Made by a program: the position numbers and the translations under genes. A stretch of 64,000 nucleotides of DNA, taken from positions 1-64,000 of the forward strand of contig JAIMBH010000010.1 in the NCBI GenBank assembly GCA_023511485.1, in the 5' to 3' direction. A model generated the notes under the pieces. That model was not told where the DNA came from and made no database searches. It saw nothing but the letters and a program-made list of their open reading frames with translations. Positions 11,596-25,899 of this stretch are shown one piece after another (the first letter of the stretch is position 1; each line of letters opens with the position of its first letter). This stretch comes from Bacillota bacterium (GTDB taxonomy: Bacteria; Actinomycetota; Aquicultoria; Aquicultorales; Aquicultoraceae).

Positions 11596-12132
11596 ATGGA
11601 TAAAACACAAAAATTAGGTCTGGTTCATGTTTATACAGGTGCCGGCAAAGGAAAAACAACCGCAGCAATGGGCCTTGCCCTAAGGGCGGTTGGTAATGGT
11701 CTGAATGTAGTAATTATCCAGTTCATGAAGGCGTTGAGTCCTGAATCGGGCGAAATAAAGGCAATCAAGCGATTTGAGAATGCCAGGGTGATGAGATATG
11801 GAGGAAACCTTCTTGCGGCAGACCACCCACCGGTTGAAATAATAAAAGAAGATATAGCTAAAGGTATTGCGGAGGCGCTGAAGGTAATAAAAACAGGGTC
11901 TTGCGACCTATTGATCCTAGATGAGATAAACGTAGCTGTATCTATGGATTTGGCCAACAAAGATAATATTTTAGGACTGGTAAAACTGTGTAAGGGGAAG
12001 GTTGAGCTTGTCCTGACCGGAAGAGATGCTCCGCAGGAATTTATATTAGCGGCGGATTATCTTACAGAGTTTTTGATGATAAAGCATCCGTTTGAAGAAG
12101 GGATTACCGCAAGGCAGGGGATAGAATTTTAA
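11596..12132 (+). CDS. cobA: Cob(I)alamin adenosyltransferase, CobA/BtuR type
   Basis: Transfers the 5'-deoxyadenosyl group of ATP to cob(I)yrinic acid diamide or cobalamin. It has 178 residues with an N-terminal P-loop GAGKGKTTAAMGLALRA and the conserved DEINVA segment. A CobO/BtuR-type P-loop ATR is distinct from PduO. ATG 11596 is preferred over ATG 11584, because GGAG (11586-11589) stands six bases before it and nothing suitable precedes the earlier ATG. The stop overlaps the next start by one base (TAATG). Confidence 0.93.
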   Translation: MDKTQKLGLVHVYTGAGKGKTTAAMGLALRAVGNGLNVVIIQFMKALSPESGEIKAIKRFENARVMRYGGNLLAADHPPVEIIKEDIAKGIAEALKVIKTGSCDLLILDEINVAVSMDLANKDNILGLVKLCKGKVELVLTGRDAPQEFILAADYLTEFLMIKHPFEEGITARQGIEF

Positions 12133-13025
12133 TGGCTATAGAGGTAATAATGCCGGGCAGCTGCGGTGAACTTGTCCAAGGCATAATCGGAGGAGTAAAC
12201 TTCCATATCACCTGCCCTATAAAATGGTATTCGAGGGCTACAGTATCGTTGATAAAGGATAAAATAATAGAGATAACCGATGGTTGCACCAAGACCGCAG
12301 AAGCTACTAGACAGGCCATCGAAATAATAAAACCAGAGTGTGGTGTCAAAGTTGATATTAAAAGCAAGCTTGCAAAAGGAAAAGGGATGGCAAGTAGCAC
12401 GGCCGATATATCGGCAGCGCTGGTGGGCACTTTTAAGCTGTTTGAGCGGAACATAACCCCGCGAGAGCTGGCACGGATTGCGGTTTCAGTTGAACCGACA
12501 GATGGGATATTCCTTGAAGGCATAGCGGTTTTTGATCATGTCGAAGGGAAAATGCTTCAGTTATTGGGTAATGCCCCACCAATAGAGATTGTAGTGCTTG
12601 AGCCACCTGAAACCGTTGATACGGTAGATTTTAATAGGAAAAAGAAGACCGGCCTTGTAAAAGATGATCCGTATATAAAAGAAGCTTTTGAAATGGCAGT
12701 TGACGGGCTAAGAAGCGCCAACAACAGGTTAATTGGTGAAGCCGCAACCCTGAGTGCCCTTCTAAACCAATCGATTCTTTATAAGCCTGAGCTAAAAGAT
12801 ATTATAGACGTTTGCAAACGGAGAGGTGGCTTGGGAGTAAATGTTGCGCATAGCGGAACCGTAATAGGAATACTGGTTGACAAGGGATACGGCAAGCGGC
12901 TATTTGATAAAATATCACACTATATACCGAAGCTATGGGATGCCTATGTAGTAGAGATGACGAATGGGGGGCCGAATGTTACTGAAACATACCCAGAATG
13001 GAAGAGCAGAGAAGTACTAGCTTAA
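12132..13025 (+). CDS. GHMP kinase, probable L-threonine kinase (PduX-like)
   Basis: Probably phosphorylates L-threonine to O-phospho-L-threonine, the substrate of the CobD decarboxylase encoded immediately downstream. It has 297 residues. The GHMP ATP-binding motif KGKGMASSTADISAAL is near 80, and PGSCGELVQG is at the N-terminus, both as in PduX. The function is inferred from the family and from its position between the ATR and CobD genes. It overlaps the ATR gene by one base, and the gap to cobD is only a few bases, so they form one translational run. Confidence 0.85.
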   Translation: MAIEVIMPGSCGELVQGIIGGVNFHITCPIKWYSRATVSLIKDKIIEITDGCTKTAEATRQAIEIIKPECGVKVDIKSKLAKGKGMASSTADISAALVGTFKLFERNITPRELARIAVSVEPTDGIFLEGIAVFDHVEGKMLQLLGNAPPIEIVVLEPPETVDTVDFNRKKKTGLVKDDPYIKEAFEMAVDGLRSANNRLIGEAATLSALLNQSILYKPELKDIIDVCKRRGGLGVNVAHSGTVIGILVDKGYGKRLFDKISHYIPKLWDAYVVEMTNGGPNVTETYPEWKSREVLA

Positions 13026-16690: not shown

Positions 16691-17809
16691 GTGCGAACGC
16701 CGAGCAAGGCAAGCCTACTAAACAAAAGACTAAAAAAAGGTTACACGACGGGAACATGCGCTGCCGCTGCGGCAAAGGCTGCAGCGAAGATGCTTTTTTC
16801 TGGTGAGACGATAAGCGAGATAGATGTTATGCTGCCGGGTAATAGCTGGGTAAAAATGAAGCTTGTTGATACAATGGTAGATAAGGATGAAGCACGGTGC
16901 GGTGTCATTAAAGATGCCGGTGACGATCCGGATGTGACCGATGGCATGGTTATTTACGCTAAGGCCGTATTGGCGGATTCAGGAGTCAAGATATCGGCCA
17001 GCGAGGGGATAGGAAAGGTAACGAAACCTGGCTTATCTGTGCCGGTTGGAGAACCAGCAATAAATCCCGTACCAAGATGGATGATAGAAGAGAATGTAAA
17101 GAGCGTTATGCCCGCAGGTAAAGGGATTGAAATTACGCTATACGCACCGGAGGGCGTTGAGAGGGCAAAGCAAACGCTCAATGAGCGGCTTGGAATTGTT
17201 GGAGGTATCTCTATCCTGGGGACAACAGGTGTTGTAAGACCAATGTCGGTTAGGAGCCTAAAAGCATCCCTGCTGCCTCAAGTCGATATAGCAGTTGCCA
17301 GCGGTTACAAAACGATTGCTCTTGTACCGGGGAATATGGGAGAGAAGGTGGCAAGAGAAAAACTCAAGTTTCCTGAAGATGCGGTTGTGCAAATGAGCAA
17401 CTTCGTAGGTGATGTGCTTGATTACTGCTTAGAAAAAGATATAGAAAGAATTTTAATTGTCGGCCATGTTGGAAAGATTGTAAAGATAGCCGCGGGGTAT
17501 CTTGACACCCATAGCAGCAAGACCGGTAGCCCAGTTGAAATGCTGCAGGGCTTGGTGCGAAAAGCTACAAAGGATATTGCACCGGTGATGTTTATGATTA
17601 GGGCAAATACGGCAGATGAGGCGGCAACAGGTCTTTTAAAACTTGGATATAAAAGGATTCTCGAAAAAATTGCAACCGAAGCAAGCCGCCAAGCAATGAA
17701 ACATGTAAAAGGGCTTATAGAAATAGGTACGGCAATGACAGTGCTAAGCGGTGAGGTTGTCGCACAGGATGAGAATGCAAAGAGAATCATCGGAGAAATG
17801 ATATGGTAA
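16691..17809 (+). CDS. cbiD: Cobalt-precorrin-5B C1-methyltransferase
   Basis: SAM-dependent methylation at C1 in the anaerobic route. About 372 residues, with the family N-terminus LKKGYTTGTCAAAAAKAA, VTKPGLSVPVGEPAINPVP and GTTGVVRPMS. The reading frame opens at TTG 16682, but GTG 16691 is preferred because AGGA lies about 9 bases upstream. The end overlaps cbiE by 7 bases. CbiD has no counterpart of the same fold in the aerobic pathway, so it is a good marker that this cluster makes B12 anaerobically. Confidence 0.95.
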   Translation: MRTPSKASLLNKRLKKGYTTGTCAAAAAKAAAKMLFSGETISEIDVMLPGNSWVKMKLVDTMVDKDEARCGVIKDAGDDPDVTDGMVIYAKAVLADSGVKISASEGIGKVTKPGLSVPVGEPAINPVPRWMIEENVKSVMPAGKGIEITLYAPEGVERAKQTLNERLGIVGGISILGTTGVVRPMSVRSLKASLLPQVDIAVASGYKTIALVPGNMGEKVAREKLKFPEDAVVQMSNFVGDVLDYCLEKDIERILIVGHVGKIVKIAAGYLDTHSSKTGSPVEMLQGLVRKATKDIAPVMFMIRANTADEAATGLLKLGYKRILEKIATEASRQAMKHVKGLIEIGTAMTVLSGEVVAQDENAKRIIGEMIW

Positions 17810-18414
17810 CTGTTGTAGGCATAGGGCCAGGACATCCAGATTTTATAACTCCGGCAGCGGTAAAGTGCATAAAAGATGCGGATGTTTTAATAGGCGGAAA
17901 AAGAGCCTTAGAGGCCGTGGAGAAGGCAGGAAAGCAGACCTATCTTGTAACAGCCGATATAGATGATACCCTATCGGCGATCAGTGACAACCGGGATAGA
18001 GAGGTTGCGGTTCTGGTAAGCGGCGACCCTGGATTTTACAGTTTGCTTAAGGCAATAAAAAAGGGGCTACCGGAATTACCGATAAAAGTTATCCCAGGTA
18101 TCAGCTCTGTGCAAATGCTGTTTAGTGCAATTGCGCAAGAGTGGCAGGATGTTCAGCTTATATCGGTACATGGCCGTCCAATAAATGAGCTAGATTCACT
18201 GATAAAGCGCACTAATAAGATATGTATCTTGACTGATGAAAAGCTAACGGCAGATAAAGTATGTAGGTACTTGCAGAGTTCAGGGTTTAACGGTAGGGCG
18301 GTAGTTGGGAGAAATCTTTCGTACCCCGACCAGGAAGTAATTGATAAAACAATCGAGGAGATTGCGGCGATGCAAAGCCTTGGCTCAAGTGTTCTTTATG
18401 TTGAAGTGATCTAG
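17803..18414 (+). CDS. cbiE: Cobalt-precorrin-7 C5-methyltransferase, CbiE domain only
   Basis: Tetrapyrrole methylase-fold SAM enzyme of 203 residues. It has GIGPGHPDFITPAA at the N-terminus, LVSGDPGFYSLLKAI mid-protein and IPGISSVQMLFSAIAQ. Only the CbiE (C5-methylating) half of the CobL/CbiET pair is present. The frame ends where CbiE proteins normally end, and the next 123 bases before cbiL cannot hold a CbiT. The C15-methyltransferase/decarboxylase step must therefore be encoded elsewhere or replaced. It overlaps cbiD by 7 bases. Confidence 0.93.
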   Translation: MVTVVGIGPGHPDFITPAAVKCIKDADVLIGGKRALEAVEKAGKQTYLVTADIDDTLSAISDNRDREVAVLVSGDPGFYSLLKAIKKGLPELPIKVIPGISSVQMLFSAIAQEWQDVQLISVHGRPINELDSLIKRTNKICILTDEKLTADKVCRYLQSSGFNGRAVVGRNLSYPDQEVIDKTIEEIAAMQSLGSSVLYVEVI

Positions 18415-18465
18415 AATATAGCAGGGTACGAAGCATTGATGCGCCGGAATCGAAGCCATGACGAT

Positions 18466-18489
18466 AACTCAAATAACTTTATTTGAGTT
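18466..18489 (+). promoter_or_regulatory. Hairpin between cbiE and cbiL
   Basis: Perfect 10-bp stem, AACTCAAATA (18466-18475) with TATTTGAGTT (18480-18489), loop ACTT. No long T-run follows. It lies at the place where cbiT is commonly found in other cbi clusters. It may be an mRNA processing or stability element; its role is unknown. Confidence 0.45.
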
Positions 18490-18537
18490 TAGTGTGCTGG
18501 AGCACTGGCACCTGAAAGATATAATCCGGAGGACTAA

Positions 18538-19275
18538 ATGAATAATTGGGGAAAGCTGTATGGAGTCGGGATTGGGCCCGGCGATACAGAACTTCTGACA
18601 ATAAAGGCAAAAAAGGTACTTAACTCGGTAGACGTAATATTTACGCCAAGGTCGGCCCCAAAAAGAGATAGCATCGCAAGAAAAATCATAGAGCCGGTTC
18701 TGGAAGGTGAAATCAGCATAAAAGAGCTAACTTTCCCAATGACGAAAGACAAAGGGGAGCTTGAGCTTCACTGGGAAAGTGCTGCAGAGGAAGTAGCCGG
18801 GGTATTGAGGAATGGGCAGAATGCAGCTTTTGTAACACTAGGAGACCCGTTCTTCTATAGCACGTATATTTATCTGTATAAGAAACTAAAAGACAGCTAC
18901 CCTGGAGTTGAGATAATTACACTGCCTGGGATAAGCTCAGCGTTTGCGTCAGCCTCGGCTGCAGGAGTGCCAATTGCAGTAGGGGATGAGAAGGTGGCTA
19001 TAATACCGCTTCCTGATGATGCAACAAGCATTCGGCGGTATTTGGAATTATTCGATACGGTGATTATCTTAAAGGTAGGCAGTAAACTCAAAGCATTGGT
19101 TGACGTGCTACTGGATACGGGTTTGGCAGATAAATCGGTTCTGGTGCAAAAAGTATCGCAAGCAGAATCGGAGAAAATTTATTTCGGGCTGTCTAGCTTA
19201 ACCGAGACTGAACTAAATAAAATTGGATACCTATCGACTGTCATTGTCAGGAATAATTATGAATCGCTAAATTAA
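18538..19275 (+). CDS. cbiL: Cobalt-precorrin-2 C20-methyltransferase
   Basis: SAM-dependent methylation at C20, the first committed methylation after cobalt insertion in the anaerobic route. The 245 residues carry the tetrapyrrole-methylase signatures YGVGIGPGDTELLTIKAKK at the N-terminus, VTLGDPFFYSTYIYL, and LPGISSAFASASAAGVP. The length and the FTPRSAPKRDS segment fit CbiL rather than CbiF or CbiH. The ATG follows GGAGGACTAA at good spacing. The protein acts between CbiX and CbiH. Confidence 0.93.
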   Translation: MNNWGKLYGVGIGPGDTELLTIKAKKVLNSVDVIFTPRSAPKRDSIARKIIEPVLEGEISIKELTFPMTKDKGELELHWESAAEEVAGVLRNGQNAAFVTLGDPFFYSTYIYLYKKLKDSYPGVEIITLPGISSAFASASAAGVPIAVGDEKVAIIPLPDDATSIRRYLELFDTVIILKVGSKLKALVDVLLDTGLADKSVLVQKVSQAESEKIYFGLSSLTETELNKIGYLSTVIVRNNYESLN

Positions 19276-20291: not shown

Positions 20292-21317
20292 GTGAAGCTT
20301 GCCGTATTTACCGTGACAGAAAACGGTTTAAAGATAGCTGACAAGATCAAGGAAAAATTGAACGACACTGTCGATATATTTACAGCACCAAAAACTGATA
20401 AATCAAAACCTTGGTTGATGAGCCTGGTAAAGGAAGTATTTCCGAAATATGATGGTTTTATATTTGTTTCAGCAGTAGGTATTGCTGTTAGGGCGCTTGC
20501 TCCGAACATAAAAGACAAGGCAATAGATCCAGCCGTAGTCGTAGTCGACGATTCAGGAGCCTTCTCGATAAGCTTATTGTCGGGGCACATTGGGGGCGCA
20601 AACGACTTAGCCCGCCAAATAGCCGATGCGGTAGGTGCGATGCCGGTTATAACTACGGCGACTGATGTATCGGGAAAGCCGGCAATCGATTTGTTCATGA
20701 AGGACCTTGGGTTAAAGACGACAAATAAGCAAGGTTTGAAGAAGGTATCTGCAGGAATACTGCGCGGCGATTCGGTGTGCATATTTGCCGACATTAAACT
20801 CGGACGTTGGGGAGATAGAGCAAAGGTTGCATACAGTGTAAGGCCTTTAAGTCAGCTAATAAGATACGGAAAGTCGTATGATCATATAGTGGCGGTAATA
20901 GACGATGAGAAGATGCAACTTGGAAGAGGCATTCTTGTACTTAGAACCCGCCGAATATATGCGGGTGTAGGTTTTCAAAAGGGTGTCTCGGCAGATGATA
21001 TAAAGCAGGCCATAAGAGCTGCATTAGCAAGCAAGAATCTTCATATGCATAATTTGAAAGGTCTGGCCAGTATAGACATAAAAGGCAGTGATAAAGCGTT
21101 ATATGAGGCGGCAGACCATTTTAATGTTGCAATTGCTCTTTATACGGCAGAACAGCTTGATGAGGTTGCACCAAATACATCGCAATTTGTGAAAGACAAG
21201 GTAGGTGCTGGTGGAGTATGCGAACCCGCAGCGATTCTAGCCTCGAAGGGTGGAAAACTGATAGCAGAGAAGGCAGTTTATGGAAAGGTAACCGTAGCCC
21301 TGGCCGAGGAGGAATAG
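20292..21317 (+). CDS. cbiG: Cobalt-precorrin-5A hydrolase
   Basis: Opens the delta-lactone of cobalt-precorrin-5A with loss of acetaldehyde, a step of the anaerobic pathway only. It has 341 residues. The CbiG central region has SISLLSGHIGGANDLAR, preceded by FVSAVGIAVRALAP. The C-terminal domain (about 225 on) contains YAGVGFQKGVS and GAGGVCEPAAILAS. The start is GTG 20292. Its 3' 100 bases overlap, in another frame, the open frame of cbiH. Confidence 0.94.
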   Translation: MKLAVFTVTENGLKIADKIKEKLNDTVDIFTAPKTDKSKPWLMSLVKEVFPKYDGFIFVSAVGIAVRALAPNIKDKAIDPAVVVVDDSGAFSISLLSGHIGGANDLARQIADAVGAMPVITTATDVSGKPAIDLFMKDLGLKTTNKQGLKKVSAGILRGDSVCIFADIKLGRWGDRAKVAYSVRPLSQLIRYGKSYDHIVAVIDDEKMQLGRGILVLRTRRIYAGVGFQKGVSADDIKQAIRAALASKNLHMHNLKGLASIDIKGSDKALYEAADHFNVAIALYTAEQLDEVAPNTSQFVKDKVGAGGVCEPAAILASKGGKLIAEKAVYGKVTVALAEEE

Positions 21318-22030
21318 TAGTAATAGGCTTAGGTCCCGGTAAAGAATCTGACATGACAATTGGGGCCAGGGAAGCATTGCAAGCATGTGATGTAATTGTA
21401 GGGTATAAAAGCTATATAAAAGCAATTGAAGAAATATCAAAGGGAAAAGAAGTCTTCCAATTCGGAATGCGAAAAGAGATCGACCGCTGCAAGAAGGCCA
21501 TCGAGCTTGCACATAATGGAAAATTAGTAGGATTGGTTAGCAGCGGAGACCCCGGCATATACGGCATGGCAGGGCTTATCCTTGAGTTGGCATCGGAGAA
21601 GGATGACATACCGATAGAGGTAGTCCCAGGTGTGAGTGCTGTCAATGCTGCGGCTTCTGCCTTAGGGGCGCCGTTAATGCATGACTTTGCGGTTATAAGC
21701 CTAAGTGATCTTTTAACTCCGTGGGAGAAAATTGAGAAACGTCTAAGGTGTGCAGCAGCTGCAGATTTTGTAACCGCACTTTACAACCCGAAAAGTACAA
21801 GGCGAAATTGGCAGATAAAGACCGCTCGAGATATATTTATGCAGTACAGGGATGTAAAAACACCGGTTGGCGTCTATGCAAAAGTTGACGATGAGCAGAG
21901 GTACATAATAAGCGACCTGGCTTCGTTCGTAGACCTTCCGATAGACATGAAAACGACGATAATTATAGGGAACAGCCAGACATATGTCACAGACGGCCGG
22001 ATGATTACCCCGCGGGGATATAAGATATGA
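21218..22030 (+). CDS. cbiH: Cobalt-factor III / precorrin-3B C17-methyltransferase
   Basis: Contracts the ring while methylating C17. The tetrapyrrole-methylase signatures are IVVIGLGPGKESDMT, VSSGDPGIYGMAG and VPGVSAVNAAASALGAP. The family-like part begins only at about base 21314, immediately after the cbiG stop. The only canonical in-frame start (ATG 21218) lies 100 bases inside cbiG and would add about 32 residues of basic, non-family sequence. Either that start, a rare codon (ATA) behind GAGGAGG at 21306-21312, or frameshifting from cbiG makes the protein. Its end overlaps cbiJ by 4 bases. Confidence 0.88.
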   Translation: MRTRSDSSLEGWKTDSREGSLWKGNRSPGRGGIVVIGLGPGKESDMTIGAREALQACDVIVGYKSYIKAIEEISKGKEVFQFGMRKEIDRCKKAIELAHNGKLVGLVSSGDPGIYGMAGLILELASEKDDIPIEVVPGVSAVNAAASALGAPLMHDFAVISLSDLLTPWEKIEKRLRCAAAADFVTALYNPKSTRRNWQIKTARDIFMQYRDVKTPVGVYAKVDDEQRYIISDLASFVDLPIDMKTTIIIGNSQTYVTDGRMITPRGYKI

Positions 22031-22797
22031 TAGTTGTCCTTGGAGGTACCACTGAGGCAAACCATCTCTTAAACAAAATCGTTAAGCTGAACCATCCCAT
22101 TACGATAAGCACTGCGTACAAGTTTGCCGAAAAATTTATACCCTACCATCCGCTGATTCAGCATATCAACGGAAAACTTGATCTGGAGGATTTGCATAAG
22201 CTAATAAAAAGTAATGGCGCAAAGGTGGTAATAGACGCCACCCACCCTTACGCTACAGAAATAAGCGATAAAGCGAAAAAGGCCTGCAATAAAGCTGGTG
22301 TCAAATATATACGCCTAAGCCGTCCGCCATCTAATAACTATGATGAAGCATCCGAATTATACCGCGTAAATTCGTATGAGGAGGCTGCGGATTTATGTTG
22401 CAGCTTAGGAAAAGTAATATTCCTTGCAATCGGAAGCAGCAATGCGCATCTTTTTCGCCGGCATTCAGAGTGTGCTGGGAGAAAGTTTTACGTAAGGATA
22501 TTACCTGACGTGGCTTCTATTGAAAGATGTATTGCTGCAGGTTTTGGCGAGGATGAAATTATCACGGGAATTGGGCCGTTTAGCTTCGAGGAAAACCGCG
22601 ATACATGGTCACGACTGAGTGTAGACGTTGTAGTAACAAAAGAAAGCGGTGTGCATGGTGGATTTCCAGAAAAGGTACGTGCCGCCAGCGATCTGGGCAT
22701 AAAAGTTGTTGTAGTGAATAGACCGGTTGATGAAGAATGCGTCATCGAAAATATTGATAAAGTTGTAGATATCGTAAAGCGTATATTGGCCGGATGA
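22027..22797 (+). CDS. cbiJ: Cobalt-precorrin-6A reductase
   Basis: Reduces cobalt-precorrin-6A with a pyridine nucleotide. It has 256 residues. The N-terminal IVVLGGTTEANHLLNK is the family hallmark, followed by VVIDATHPYATEISDKA and YIRLSRPP. The C-terminal part has GIGPFSFEENRD and VVTKESGVHGGFPEK. It is the last recognisable corrin-ring gene of the first unit and overlaps cbiH by 4 bases. A 222-base gap with hairpins follows. Confidence 0.93.
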   Translation: MIVVLGGTTEANHLLNKIVKLNHPITISTAYKFAEKFIPYHPLIQHINGKLDLEDLHKLIKSNGAKVVIDATHPYATEISDKAKKACNKAGVKYIRLSRPPSNNYDEASELYRVNSYEEAADLCCSLGKVIFLAIGSSNAHLFRRHSECAGRKFYVRILPDVASIERCIAAGFGEDEIITGIGPFSFEENRDTWSRLSVDVVVTKESGVHGGFPEKVRAASDLGIKVVVVNRPVDEECVIENIDKVVDIVKRILAG

Positions 22798-22928
22798 CAG
22801 AGTTTAGGATTCCACAAAAGTAAGAACTAATTCACTCCCATGCTGGCCCACTTTAAACCATCTAAGTAAGTATGCAAAGTAGCCAAGTGCAAATTCCAAC
22901 TTATTCAAGAATTTCAATTATCAAAAAC

Positions 22929-23003
22929 GGGAGGTAAATCTCCTGATAAAGATGAAAAACCTCTATGTATGGTAAATAGAGGACAGACTTTGTTAAAACA
23001 AGG
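22929..23003 (+). promoter_or_regulatory. Hairpin-rich leader of the ATP-grasp gene
   Basis: Three stems in 75 bases: GGAG/CTCC (22930-22943), CCTCTAT/ATAGAGG with a 9-base loop (22960-22982), and CTTTGTT/AACAAGG (22988-23003). The first two loops share the word GGTAAAT or overlap it. I do not recognise the arrangement as a known riboswitch. It lies 17-90 bases before the start of the ATP-grasp gene. Confidence 0.4.
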
Positions 23004-23019
23004 GGTTTAATTTACGTCT

Positions 23020-24414
23020 ATGGAATTTGTGAATCGGCCAAGTCTGCATGTGCAAAACATATTTGATGTCTTTAATCCCTTTGTCTTTGGAGTAAATGGC
23101 TACCTGAAGATGAAGTGCGTACAGGTCCAAAACCGCGTCGTTAGCATGGCAAATCCGGGCGATATAGTGGCCGTTGGCGATGACTGTCCGCAAGCGTTCA
23201 TCGACTACATGCTTTCTATAAGAAAAATCGGTAGGGCAATTATTTTGCGGTACAGCGTTAAGAGAGACGAAAGAAAGTATCTAAACGCCTACTCTGTTTT
23301 TAAAGTCCTTCCATCAAACCCAATCTGGGGGTCGGTCATTCAAAGAAATCCAATTTTAAACCCCTATATAAAATCGCATGCTATTTATAAGGCGGCAAAC
23401 GAGGCGGGAATGAAAATCCCTGAGAGGACCTGGAGGGCTGAGGTAGAAGCCCAGGTAAGCCAGAAAATGAATGATAAGGCAAACCTTTACCGGGAATGCG
23501 AAAAGCTGAGCCTACCGATTCCTTTATACCTGATTGCTAATGGAGAAAGTCTTGCAGAAACTGCCTTAGACCTATTGAGCAGAGAAGATCGCCCGATATA
23601 CATTCGCCAGGCAAGAAGCGGTGGGGCATTCGGGAACATTACGGCGGAAAGGTTTAAGAATAAATATATAATCCACGAGGCAGGCCCACATTTGCTCACA
23701 AAAAGAGAGTTTATCGAATCAATTAGGCAATACGTTAAAGAAAATATTTGGCGTGAGTTTGTGGTAACAGAACTCCTCGATCTGTACGCGTCTCCAGGGA
23801 CGTTATTTTACGTAAGCGACACAGAGGTTAAGATAATTGCGCATACTTATCAGCTGCTGAACCAAAGAAGGCGTTTTTTAGGCTTTATGTACCCGATAAC
23901 GGATGCGAATATAGCCAGGCATATTAATTGGGTAGAGCAGGCTCTTTATGCTTTAGTGGAGCCATGGAGGCGGCTTGGCTATAGAGGTTTTGGGAATGTC
24001 GATTGGATGGTGACAAAAGATGGACATTATTATATTGCAGAATTAAATGCGAGACAGACCGCAGTTGTTCCTTGTTTAAAAATTGAGAACGCCGTTGCAG
24101 AGAGAGGCATCGGCCTTGATGAGGTATTAGAGCCAAATCTTTCGGTTTTTACGATTGATAGGCTTTATTTTAAGCGACCGATATCATTCGCGGAAGCTTA
24201 TTCGGTTTTATCAAAAAGCGATTTGCTTTGGGGACAAGGTAAAAGTGAAGCTGGCATTGTGATCACAATCCCGCCGGCACCAGCCTTCGGAATTAATAGT
24301 ATTGGATTAATGGCGCTTGGACCTGATCTGCTTTCTGCATATAAAGTATACAAGAGAGCTATTTGGGTGCTCGGAAGCAAAGAAGGGAAGCTCTTGTTTG
24401 AACCACAAATATAG
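23020..24414 (+). CDS. ATP-grasp family ligase of unknown substrate
   Basis: A 464-residue protein I do not recognise as any named enzyme. The ATP-grasp fold is suggested by a glycine-rich loop YIRQARSGGAFGN (about 195-206), followed by VTELLDLYASPG. The metal-binding block is GFGNVDWMV (323-331) with ELNARQT (341-347). ATP-grasp enzymes join a carboxylate to an amine or thiol, or form related bonds through an acyl phosphate. Residues 1-140 would be a pre-ATP-grasp domain. No partner biosynthesis gene lies beside it except the reverse-strand aldo/keto reductase. It could be a peptide or amino-acid ligase; a role in B12 is not shown. Confidence 0.65.
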   Translation: MEFVNRPSLHVQNIFDVFNPFVFGVNGYLKMKCVQVQNRVVSMANPGDIVAVGDDCPQAFIDYMLSIRKIGRAIILRYSVKRDERKYLNAYSVFKVLPSNPIWGSVIQRNPILNPYIKSHAIYKAANEAGMKIPERTWRAEVEAQVSQKMNDKANLYRECEKLSLPIPLYLIANGESLAETALDLLSREDRPIYIRQARSGGAFGNITAERFKNKYIIHEAGPHLLTKREFIESIRQYVKENIWREFVVTELLDLYASPGTLFYVSDTEVKIIAHTYQLLNQRRRFLGFMYPITDANIARHINWVEQALYALVEPWRRLGYRGFGNVDWMVTKDGHYYIAELNARQTAVVPCLKIENAVAERGIGLDEVLEPNLSVFTIDRLYFKRPISFAEAYSVLSKSDLLWGQGKSEAGIVITIPPAPAFGINSIGLMALGPDLLSAYKVYKRAIWVLGSKEGKLLFEPQI

Positions 24415-24443: not shown

Positions 24444-25346
24444 TTATGCAGCACTAAGCCATTCAGGATGGATTGTAGTGCTATCGTAAGCGATAGTTGT
24501 CTTATAAGGCTCAAATACACCGGATTTGCCTATGGGAGCAGTCTTCTCAAGGATTGTGTCTATCTCGGCATCGCTCAAACGTACAAAAGTAGTTGCAGCT
24601 TGAATTGCCTGGTCTAAGTCATGCTGATTTTGAAGTCCGGTGACAATTACAGAAACGGGTAAGCTCATAACATAATGGAGCGCTTCAGTTGCTGTTACTG
24701 TATGTGTATCAAATAGCTCGCCGGCCGCAAAAGGCTTCATTCCAATGCATCCTATATTCCGCTCGTTTAAAATAGGAAGGACTTTTTTCTGAAAACTTTC
24801 GTAATGTACATCAAGCACATTAAGCGGCATCTGCACGGTGTCCCACTCGAAATCCTGTTCAAGCATCTTCAGGTGGATGGCGGGATTTTTGTGGCCAGTA
24901 AAACCGATAAAACGAATCTTCCCGGTGTCACGCGCTTCTACAATCGCATCCATGGCGCCTCCTGGTGAGAAAGCCAGGTCGGGGTCATCCATGCGAATTA
25001 CCTCGTGCAGTTGAAGGAGGTCAATATGCTCAACCTGAAGCCTGCTCAGGCTCTGGTCGATCTGTTTTTTAGCCGCATTTTTAGTACGTCCATCGATTTT
25101 TGTCATAAGAAACACTTTATTACGATACCCTTTTTTCAGAGCCTCGCCCATGATACGTTCACTTTCGCCCTGGTGGTAATCCCAGCAGTTGTCCATAAAG
25201 TTAATGCCGCTGTCTATTGCGCGGCGGATTAGGTTAATAGCGTTTCCATGGTCTCGTATAAGGCCGATATGAAAGCCGCCAAGGCCGATAATTGAAACCA
25301 TCTCACCGGTTTTACCGAGCTTCCGGTAGGGTATCTCATGCTGCAT
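24444..25346 (-). CDS. Aldo/keto reductase
   Basis: NAD(P)H-dependent oxidoreductase of 300 residues with a TIM-barrel fold. It has YRKLGKTGEMVSIIGLGG at the N-terminus, the tetrad region INFMDNCWDYHQGESE with Asp and Tyr, the lysine in LMTKIDGR, and LLQLHEV carrying the active-site histidine. It is a single-domain form without the C-terminal ferredoxin-like extension seen in some anaerobes. The ATG at 25344-25346 is preferred, with AGAGGAAG seven bases upstream. It converges on the ATP-grasp gene with a 29-base gap; the substrate is unknown. Confidence 0.88.
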   Translation of the reverse strand: MQHEIPYRKLGKTGEMVSIIGLGGFHIGLIRDHGNAINLIRRAIDSGINFMDNCWDYHQGESERIMGEALKKGYRNKVFLMTKIDGRTKNAAKKQIDQSLSRLQVEHIDLLQLHEVIRMDDPDLAFSPGGAMDAIVEARDTGKIRFIGFTGHKNPAIHLKMLEQDFEWDTVQMPLNVLDVHYESFQKKVLPILNERNIGCIGMKPFAAGELFDTHTVTATEALHYVMSLPVSVIVTGLQNQHDLDQAIQAATTFVRLSDAEIDTILEKTAPIGKSGVFEPYKTTIAYDSTTIHPEWLSAA

Positions 25347-25503
25347 AGAGAATCTTCCTCTCAACTAAGAAAGAATAAAAGGATTAAAATAATGTAACGA
25401 TTTGCATTTTTCCCAGGGAAGAGAAAAGTAAACCATAAATATTATCGATCCTAGCATACTTGGCAAAGCCATAATTAGGTGCTCCATTTGCTTAACTTTT
25501 AGT

Positions 25504-25532: not shown

Positions 25533-25558
25533 TTTATTGGAAAGTAAATATTCGCCTG

Positions 25559-25790
25559 GGTGCCGCATTTAGCGGAGAATAGGGAAGCCGGTGAGAATCC
25601 GGCACGGGCCCGCCACTGTAAACGGGGAGCGAGTCGCAAGTTGCCACTGGGTGATAAACCCGGGAAGGAGCGGCGAAGCATAGATCCGTAAGTCAGGAGA
25701 CCTGCCTGGGCTATAACTAAACGCTCGACGAGGAAAAGAGTGTTTGAAAATTGCTATATAAAAAATCCCTCGTAAAGCGAGGGATTTTTT
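25559..25790 (+). promoter_or_regulatory. Cobalamin riboswitch 2 with transcription-terminator platform
   Basis: The aptamer at 25559-25710 is identical over 152 bases to riboswitch 1, including the GCCACTG core and the B12 box. The platform differs completely. A strong terminator (TCCCTCG/CGAGGGA extended by A-T pairs, then T6) lies at 25761-25790. ACGAGG (25728-25733) can pair with CCTCGT (25768-25773) in the terminator's left arm, and so can act as antiterminator. The unit controls cobT, cobS and probably cobC. Confidence 0.93.
25761..25790 (+). terminator. Intrinsic terminator of riboswitch 2
   Basis: Twelve-pair stem AAAAATCCCTCG with CGAGGGATTTTT around a short TAAAG loop. It lies 110 bases before cobT and is the off-state of the riboswitch. 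Confidence 0.85.
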
Positions 25791-25899
25791 ATATTTTAAT
25801 AGCTAGATCTGGCCTAGAGCTGGGATAAAGAAAATGCAGTTTAACGTCTTTTCAATATAACTCTGCCTGGTAGAGGGATAAAGCAAGGAGGGATGCGAA

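Follow-up and report, generated by a model that had tools for sequence, protein, structure and literature searches.

ATP-grasp enzymes use ATP-Mg to phosphorylate a carboxylate, whose acyl-phosphate is then attacked by an amine. The enzyme PGM1 was reportedly described by Noike et al. in 2015 as the peptide ligase of pheganomycin, and the 'ATP grasp protein' structures 3wvq and 3wvr are taken here to represent it. PGM1 is encoded in a natural-product cluster and couples a core peptide with an amino acid that is nonproteinogenic (PMC8939145, which also cites the 2015 paper), and KtmD has been described as the ATP-grasp peptide ligase of the ketomemicin clusters, which consist of the six genes ktmA-F (PMC11943689). 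Two further solved members are BesA, an L-propargylglycine--L-glutamate ligase (8yi6; NF042917), and an ATP-grasp peptide ligase from Streptomyces (8ynd/8ynq).

A gene for a protein distantly related to these ligases is found in the stretch of 64,000 nucleotides analyzed here, called the window in the following. It lies 222 nt behind cbiJ and is followed by a convergent aldo/keto reductase (AKR) gene and then by the second cobalamin riboswitch, in agreement with an earlier note on this DNA (Table 1). The frame is intact, reads from an ATG to a TAG codon, occurs as a single copy in the genome, and has a GC content of 0.435, like its neighbors, and a mean log codon probability of -1.145, within the range of the cbi genes; its full-length conservation in a second genome (G004) sets it well apart from an ORF arisen by chance. 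The metal-binding residues D328, E341, and N343 were confirmed at the positions given in the earlier note, represent the D...ExN arrangement of the Mg/ATP ligands Asp, Glu, and Asn of the ATP-grasp superfamily, and are invariant in the G004 homologue and in 32 distant PGM1-like proteins. Alignment of these 34 sequences yields 18 invariant columns, including K153, G205 and N206 of a loop, S258, P259, Q278, D328, E341, N343, and R345, all of which belong, together with E251, to the ATP-grasp core. K153 is the invariant first of the two nucleotide-binding lysines of the superfamily, and the second is replaced in both homologues by an arginine (R196 in the window protein), standing where relatives carry Lys, which makes the activity of the protein not certain.

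Table 1. Features of the ATP-grasp gene and its surroundings (positions within the window).
Feature	Position	Strand	Remark
cbiJ (precorrin-6A reductase), upstream neighbor, synteny anchor	22027..22797	+	
Spacer between cbiJ and the ATP-grasp gene, 222 nt	22798..23019	+	
ATP-grasp ligase-type protein, putative distant relative of PGM1/BesA/8ynd	23020..24414	+	464 aa ORF
N-terminal pre-ATP-grasp part of alpha/beta type, about residues 1-150	23020..23469	+	sub-threshold PreAtp-grasp match
ATP-grasp core, residues about 151-368	23470..24123	+	alignment and model
C-terminal extension, about residues 369-464, collinear with PGM1_C in PGM1-like proteins	24124..24411	+	
Aldo/keto reductase (AKR), convergent downstream neighbor	24444..25364	-	
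Second cobalamin riboswitch, ahead of cobT	25541..25723	+	134 bits

A natural-product cluster, which is usual for characterized members of the PGM1/BesA type without being strictly defining, is absent around both the window gene and its G004 homologue, and a search for RiPP precursors near the gene gave no plausible candidate, the longest plus-strand ORF of the spacer having 21 aa. The spacer itself shows no Rfam match above chance and an ordinary fold (z -0.26); its plus strand contains no sigma-70-like or terminator-like site, and promoter and terminator scans around it were no better than chance. Affiliation with a defence system was ruled out, the sole sign being an 11-bit SspB match. Just 3' of the second cobalamin riboswitch, an inverted repeat of 17 nt without mismatch, one arm of which is T-rich (25756-25794), looks like the terminator of this riboswitch.

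As judged from the family models, the window protein stays below every curated cut-off, with ATP-grasp_3 as best Pfam match (20.7 bits vs a cut-off of 23.2) and BesA as best NCBIfam match (15.5 bits vs 750). The earlier statement that it has no recognised family partner thus holds for the curated cut-offs of Pfam and NCBIfam, but not for more distant kinship, which is visible with PGM1, BesA, and 8ynd. A phmmer search of the PDB with the single sequence returned 8ynd, annotated as 'ATP-grasp peptide ligase', as top match (E = 8.7e-6) and D-Ala-D-Ala ligase as second (0.0066), while a two-sequence profile of the window and G004 proteins yielded values of 1.2e-7 for 8ynd and 0.05 for D-Ala-D-Ala ligase as the next family. 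In the profile alignment, residues 147-209 and 312-346 of the window protein are collinear with residues 139-201 and 309-343 of 8ynd. For comparison by hhalign, PGM1-like proteins were gathered from the same phylum via PF18604 and a profile search; against 39 of these proteins, a probability of 87.7% was obtained over window residues 194-454, covering the ATP-grasp core and the C-terminal extension, with all controls (reversed, column-shuffled, and unrelated) at 2.1% or below, and the N-terminal half alone reached a non-significant 2.7%. PreAtp-grasp (PF18604) matches remain below the cut-off of 27.5 in the window protein (residues 38-71, 12.5 bits) and in the G004 homologue (residues 36-105, 16.4 bits), and PGM1_C (PF18105) is matched by 32 of the 34 aligned members, with no match in the window protein. 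In the reverse direction, an HMM built solely from the PGM1-like proteins assigned the window protein an E-value of about 20, within the range of shuffled sequences, and the G004 homologue one of 0.31.

Structure prediction with fold comparison, which the earlier note had proposed as a check, points in the same direction. AlphaFold reached a pLDDT of 81.7 and a pTM of 0.83 with the 34-sequence alignment, compared with a pLDDT of 34 from two close sequences alone, and residues 14-31 of the N-terminal part are unreliable in the model. In a Foldseek search of the PDB, ranks 1-19 were all occupied by 8ynd, 8ynq, 3wvq, 3wvr, and 8yi6 (BesA) with TM scores (target) of 0.68-0.78, a match not fully independent of the family hypothesis because the model drew on PGM1-like sequences; PurK followed at 0.64, with acyl-CoA carboxylase subunits also behind. 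With this reservation, the protein is predicted to adopt the ATP-grasp fold, its best PDB matches being ATP-grasp enzymes, and to share the overall fold of the solved PGM1/BesA-type members. The earlier description as an orphan and poorly explained ATP-grasp ligase-type protein is supported.

G004 represents a second genus of the family to which the window genome belongs. Its homologue shares 49% identity with the window protein across residues 4-459, corresponding to the whole length, and is encoded on a separate contig, flanked by a GGDEF gene and a NUDIX gene. Only these two genomes gave matches at 1e-10 in a phylum draw of 397, the other 395 containing no homologue; tblastn searches of plasmids and phages yielded none either, nor did searches of viral contigs, of three further small classes, and of the other cbiJ-bearing relatives covered, and a scan of genome contigs with four peptide patterns, which detects only relatives keeping the exact patterns, was likewise negative. 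Between the window genome and G004, the identity values amount to 48% for CbiJ, 46.5% for CobS, and 52.5% for CbiG, and the divergence of the ATP-grasp protein appears compatible with descent from an ancestor of the family, a transfer also being possible.

At the corresponding locus, G001, which belongs to the same genus as the window genome, keeps cbiG-H-J, AKR, cobT, cobS, and cobC and contains a 28-codon remnant of the ATP-grasp gene, with cbiJ and AKR only 72 nt apart (L025 6383-6454). The remnant (L025 6397-6483, minus strand) starts inside the last cbiJ codons in another frame and reads CIQVQNRVVDMASSGDFVMVNLLFKLKI up to a stop codon. Its first 20 residues match residues 33-52 of the window protein (CVQVQNRVVSMANPGDIVAV) with a score of 73 vs 51 for the best of 200 shuffles, and its short end, LLFKLKI plus stop, resembles LLFEPQI plus stop of the window protein in the same frame. 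The stretch agrees with the window gene in place, strand, and frame and is, as judged from its sequence, what is left of the ATP-grasp gene after deletion of its middle. The last residues of the CbiJ of G001 are in turn read from this remnant in another frame. G002, of the same genus as well, keeps cbiG-H-J and cobT-S, and its cbiJ abuts the tail of AKR, followed by the riboswitch region and cobT; only about 30 C-terminal AKR residues are left there (L026 7587-7676), overlapping the end of cbiJ, and the remainder is deleted. Other genes are found between cbiJ and AKR in G003 and G004, where a membrane-protein gene of about 222 aa, absent in the window genome, occurs at this place (L027 6732-7400 and L028 8050-8715). 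The orthologous places of G002, G003, and G004 revealed no remnants convincing against shuffles.

Since the G001 remnant dates the position between cbiJ and AKR back to the time before G001 diverged from the window genome, the gene appears to be an old dispensable resident of the locus, of which the two same-genus relatives examined have kept a remnant or nothing at all. The CbiJ proteins of G001 and G002 are 81.5% identical to each other and 56-57% identical to that of the window genome, so G001 and G002 form the closer pair, and the loss may have started before they separated. The suggestion of an unrelated insertion made in the earlier note should accordingly be replaced by one of presence in a common ancestor and later loss in the sister genomes. 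A recent insertion or a mobile element was also ruled out, as no inverted or direct repeats frame the gene, GC content and codon usage resemble those of the neighbors, and the remnant is present in G001. The gene travels constantly with neither the cbi genes nor AKR, the alternatives offered for checking, because AKR occurs at the orthologous place without it in G001, G003, and G004, and the G004 homologue is located away from the cbi genes.

The best explanation, with a probability of about 0.72, is that the gene codes for a stand-alone ATP-grasp carboxylate-amine ligase for amino acids or peptides with the architecture of PGM1, BesA, and 8ynd, acting outside cobalamin synthesis and retained as an old dispensable resident. 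The ATP-grasp core of the protein would be preceded by a pre-ATP-grasp domain and followed by a PGM1_C-like extension at the C-terminus, and the protein probably works like these ligases as a far branch of them, not as a member of a curated family. Beyond the distant homology and the conserved catalytic residues, the chemistry is modeled on that of the relatives: ATP and Mg2+, bound by the metal ligands D328, E341, and N343 and by nucleotide contacts to K153 and probably R196 and E251, would phosphorylate an amino acid or small peptide at its carboxylate, and attack of an amine on the acyl-phosphate would yield an amide, ADP, and phosphate. A different ATP-grasp subclass with a chemistry other than PGM1/BesA-type ligation, either D-Ala-D-Ala ligase-like or resembling the carboxylases PurK and biotin carboxylase, is unlikely: D-Ala-D-Ala ligase and biotin carboxylase occur among the weak matches, and in the fold comparison PurK and acyl-CoA carboxylase subunits come next, but the sequence matches are orders of magnitude weaker than that to 8ynd and mainly cover the D...ExN motif, and the C-terminal extension pairs with PGM1-like proteins in the profile-profile comparison. 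It is very unlikely that the gene represents a catalytically impaired or decaying copy heading for loss and without present function, as might be suspected from its reduction or absence in two same-genus relatives, the Lys to Arg change at position 196, and the lack of partner genes. The 464-codon frame is intact, its identity to the G004 protein is close to the values of CbiJ, CobS, and CbiG, all metal ligands and K153 are retained, and R196 is common to both homologues and hence no sign of fresh decay.

A function in cobalamin metabolism, a possibility touched on in the earlier note, is highly improbable, for instance in amidating a corrin side chain or in coupling an amino acid with a cobamide or B12 precursor, even though the gene directly follows cbiJ on the same strand with no terminator-like site between them and was already present there before G001 and the window genome diverged. 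The window encodes CobU, CbiP, CbiB, CobA, CobD, CbiA, a CbiX-CbiC fusion, CbiD, and CbiE, and further CbiL, CbiF, CbiG, CbiH, CbiJ, CobT, CobS, and CobC; with CbiA, CbiP, and CbiB present, the amide-forming steps have their usual enzymes, and CobU, CobT, and CobS are also standard. An enzyme of this pathway would be kept wherever cbi/cob genes are kept or would fill a missing step, and the ATP-grasp gene does neither: G001 keeps the block of cbiG-H-J, AKR, and cobT-S with a remnant only, G002 shows no trace of the gene despite retaining cbiG-H-J and cobT-S, the G004 homologue adjoins GGDEF and NUDIX genes, and the other cbiJ-bearing relatives searched have no homologue. A role in B12 synthesis is therefore not supported, and the tempting idea of a missing amide-forming step can be removed.

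Some further observations concern the cobalamin genes themselves. CbiE is encoded without CbiT next to it, both in the window (region 17803-18538, genome G000) and in eight family members, and a search of nine family genomes for CbiT (TIGR02469) returned only sub-threshold methyltransferases, the best with 48.6 bits vs a cut-off of 78.3; the step of CbiT may be carried out by a divergent form or by another enzyme. An ORF of 297 aa between cobA and cobD (12132-13025) has no NCBIfam match at 1e-15 and possibly codes, as judged from its position, for a PduX-like L-threonine kinase. The cbiH frame as listed shares 100 nt with the end of cbiG (21218-21317), and since the CbiH match begins at residue 33, the true start is probably located further in.

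The orphan protein thereby obtains a testable place as a candidate for a divergent amino-acid/peptide ligase branch located outside natural-product clusters, and the G001 remnant illustrates that gene loss and gene insertion can be distinguished by comparing sister genomes. An extended version, in which a previously undescribed PGM1/BesA-like branch, intact so far in only two genomes of one family, makes some dipeptide or conjugate outside biosynthetic clusters and is possibly B12-controlled by read-through from the riboswitch-controlled cbi genes, is unlikely.

Compared with the known systems, KtmD is of the same functional kind by name and description, but lies in its ktmA-F cluster, whereas the window gene has no such neighbors. 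The same difference applies to PGM1 with its natural-product cluster, although 3wvq/3wvr match the fold over the whole length at a TM score (target) of about 0.73 and 16-17% identity, and to BesA, which matches the fold at 0.68 but falls far short of its family cut-off in sequence and has biosynthetic neighbors missing beside the window gene. The PreAtp-grasp/PGM1_C proteins of the same phylum (L030-L088) have 13-20% identity to the window protein, which their HMM misses, but share the collinear ATP-grasp core and C-terminal extension with it. Closest of all is the Streptomyces ligase 8ynd/8ynq, which retains the Lys in a KQDRSGG motif corresponding to RQARSGG in the window protein and, at about 15% identity in the structural alignment, is its top match in both sequence and fold.
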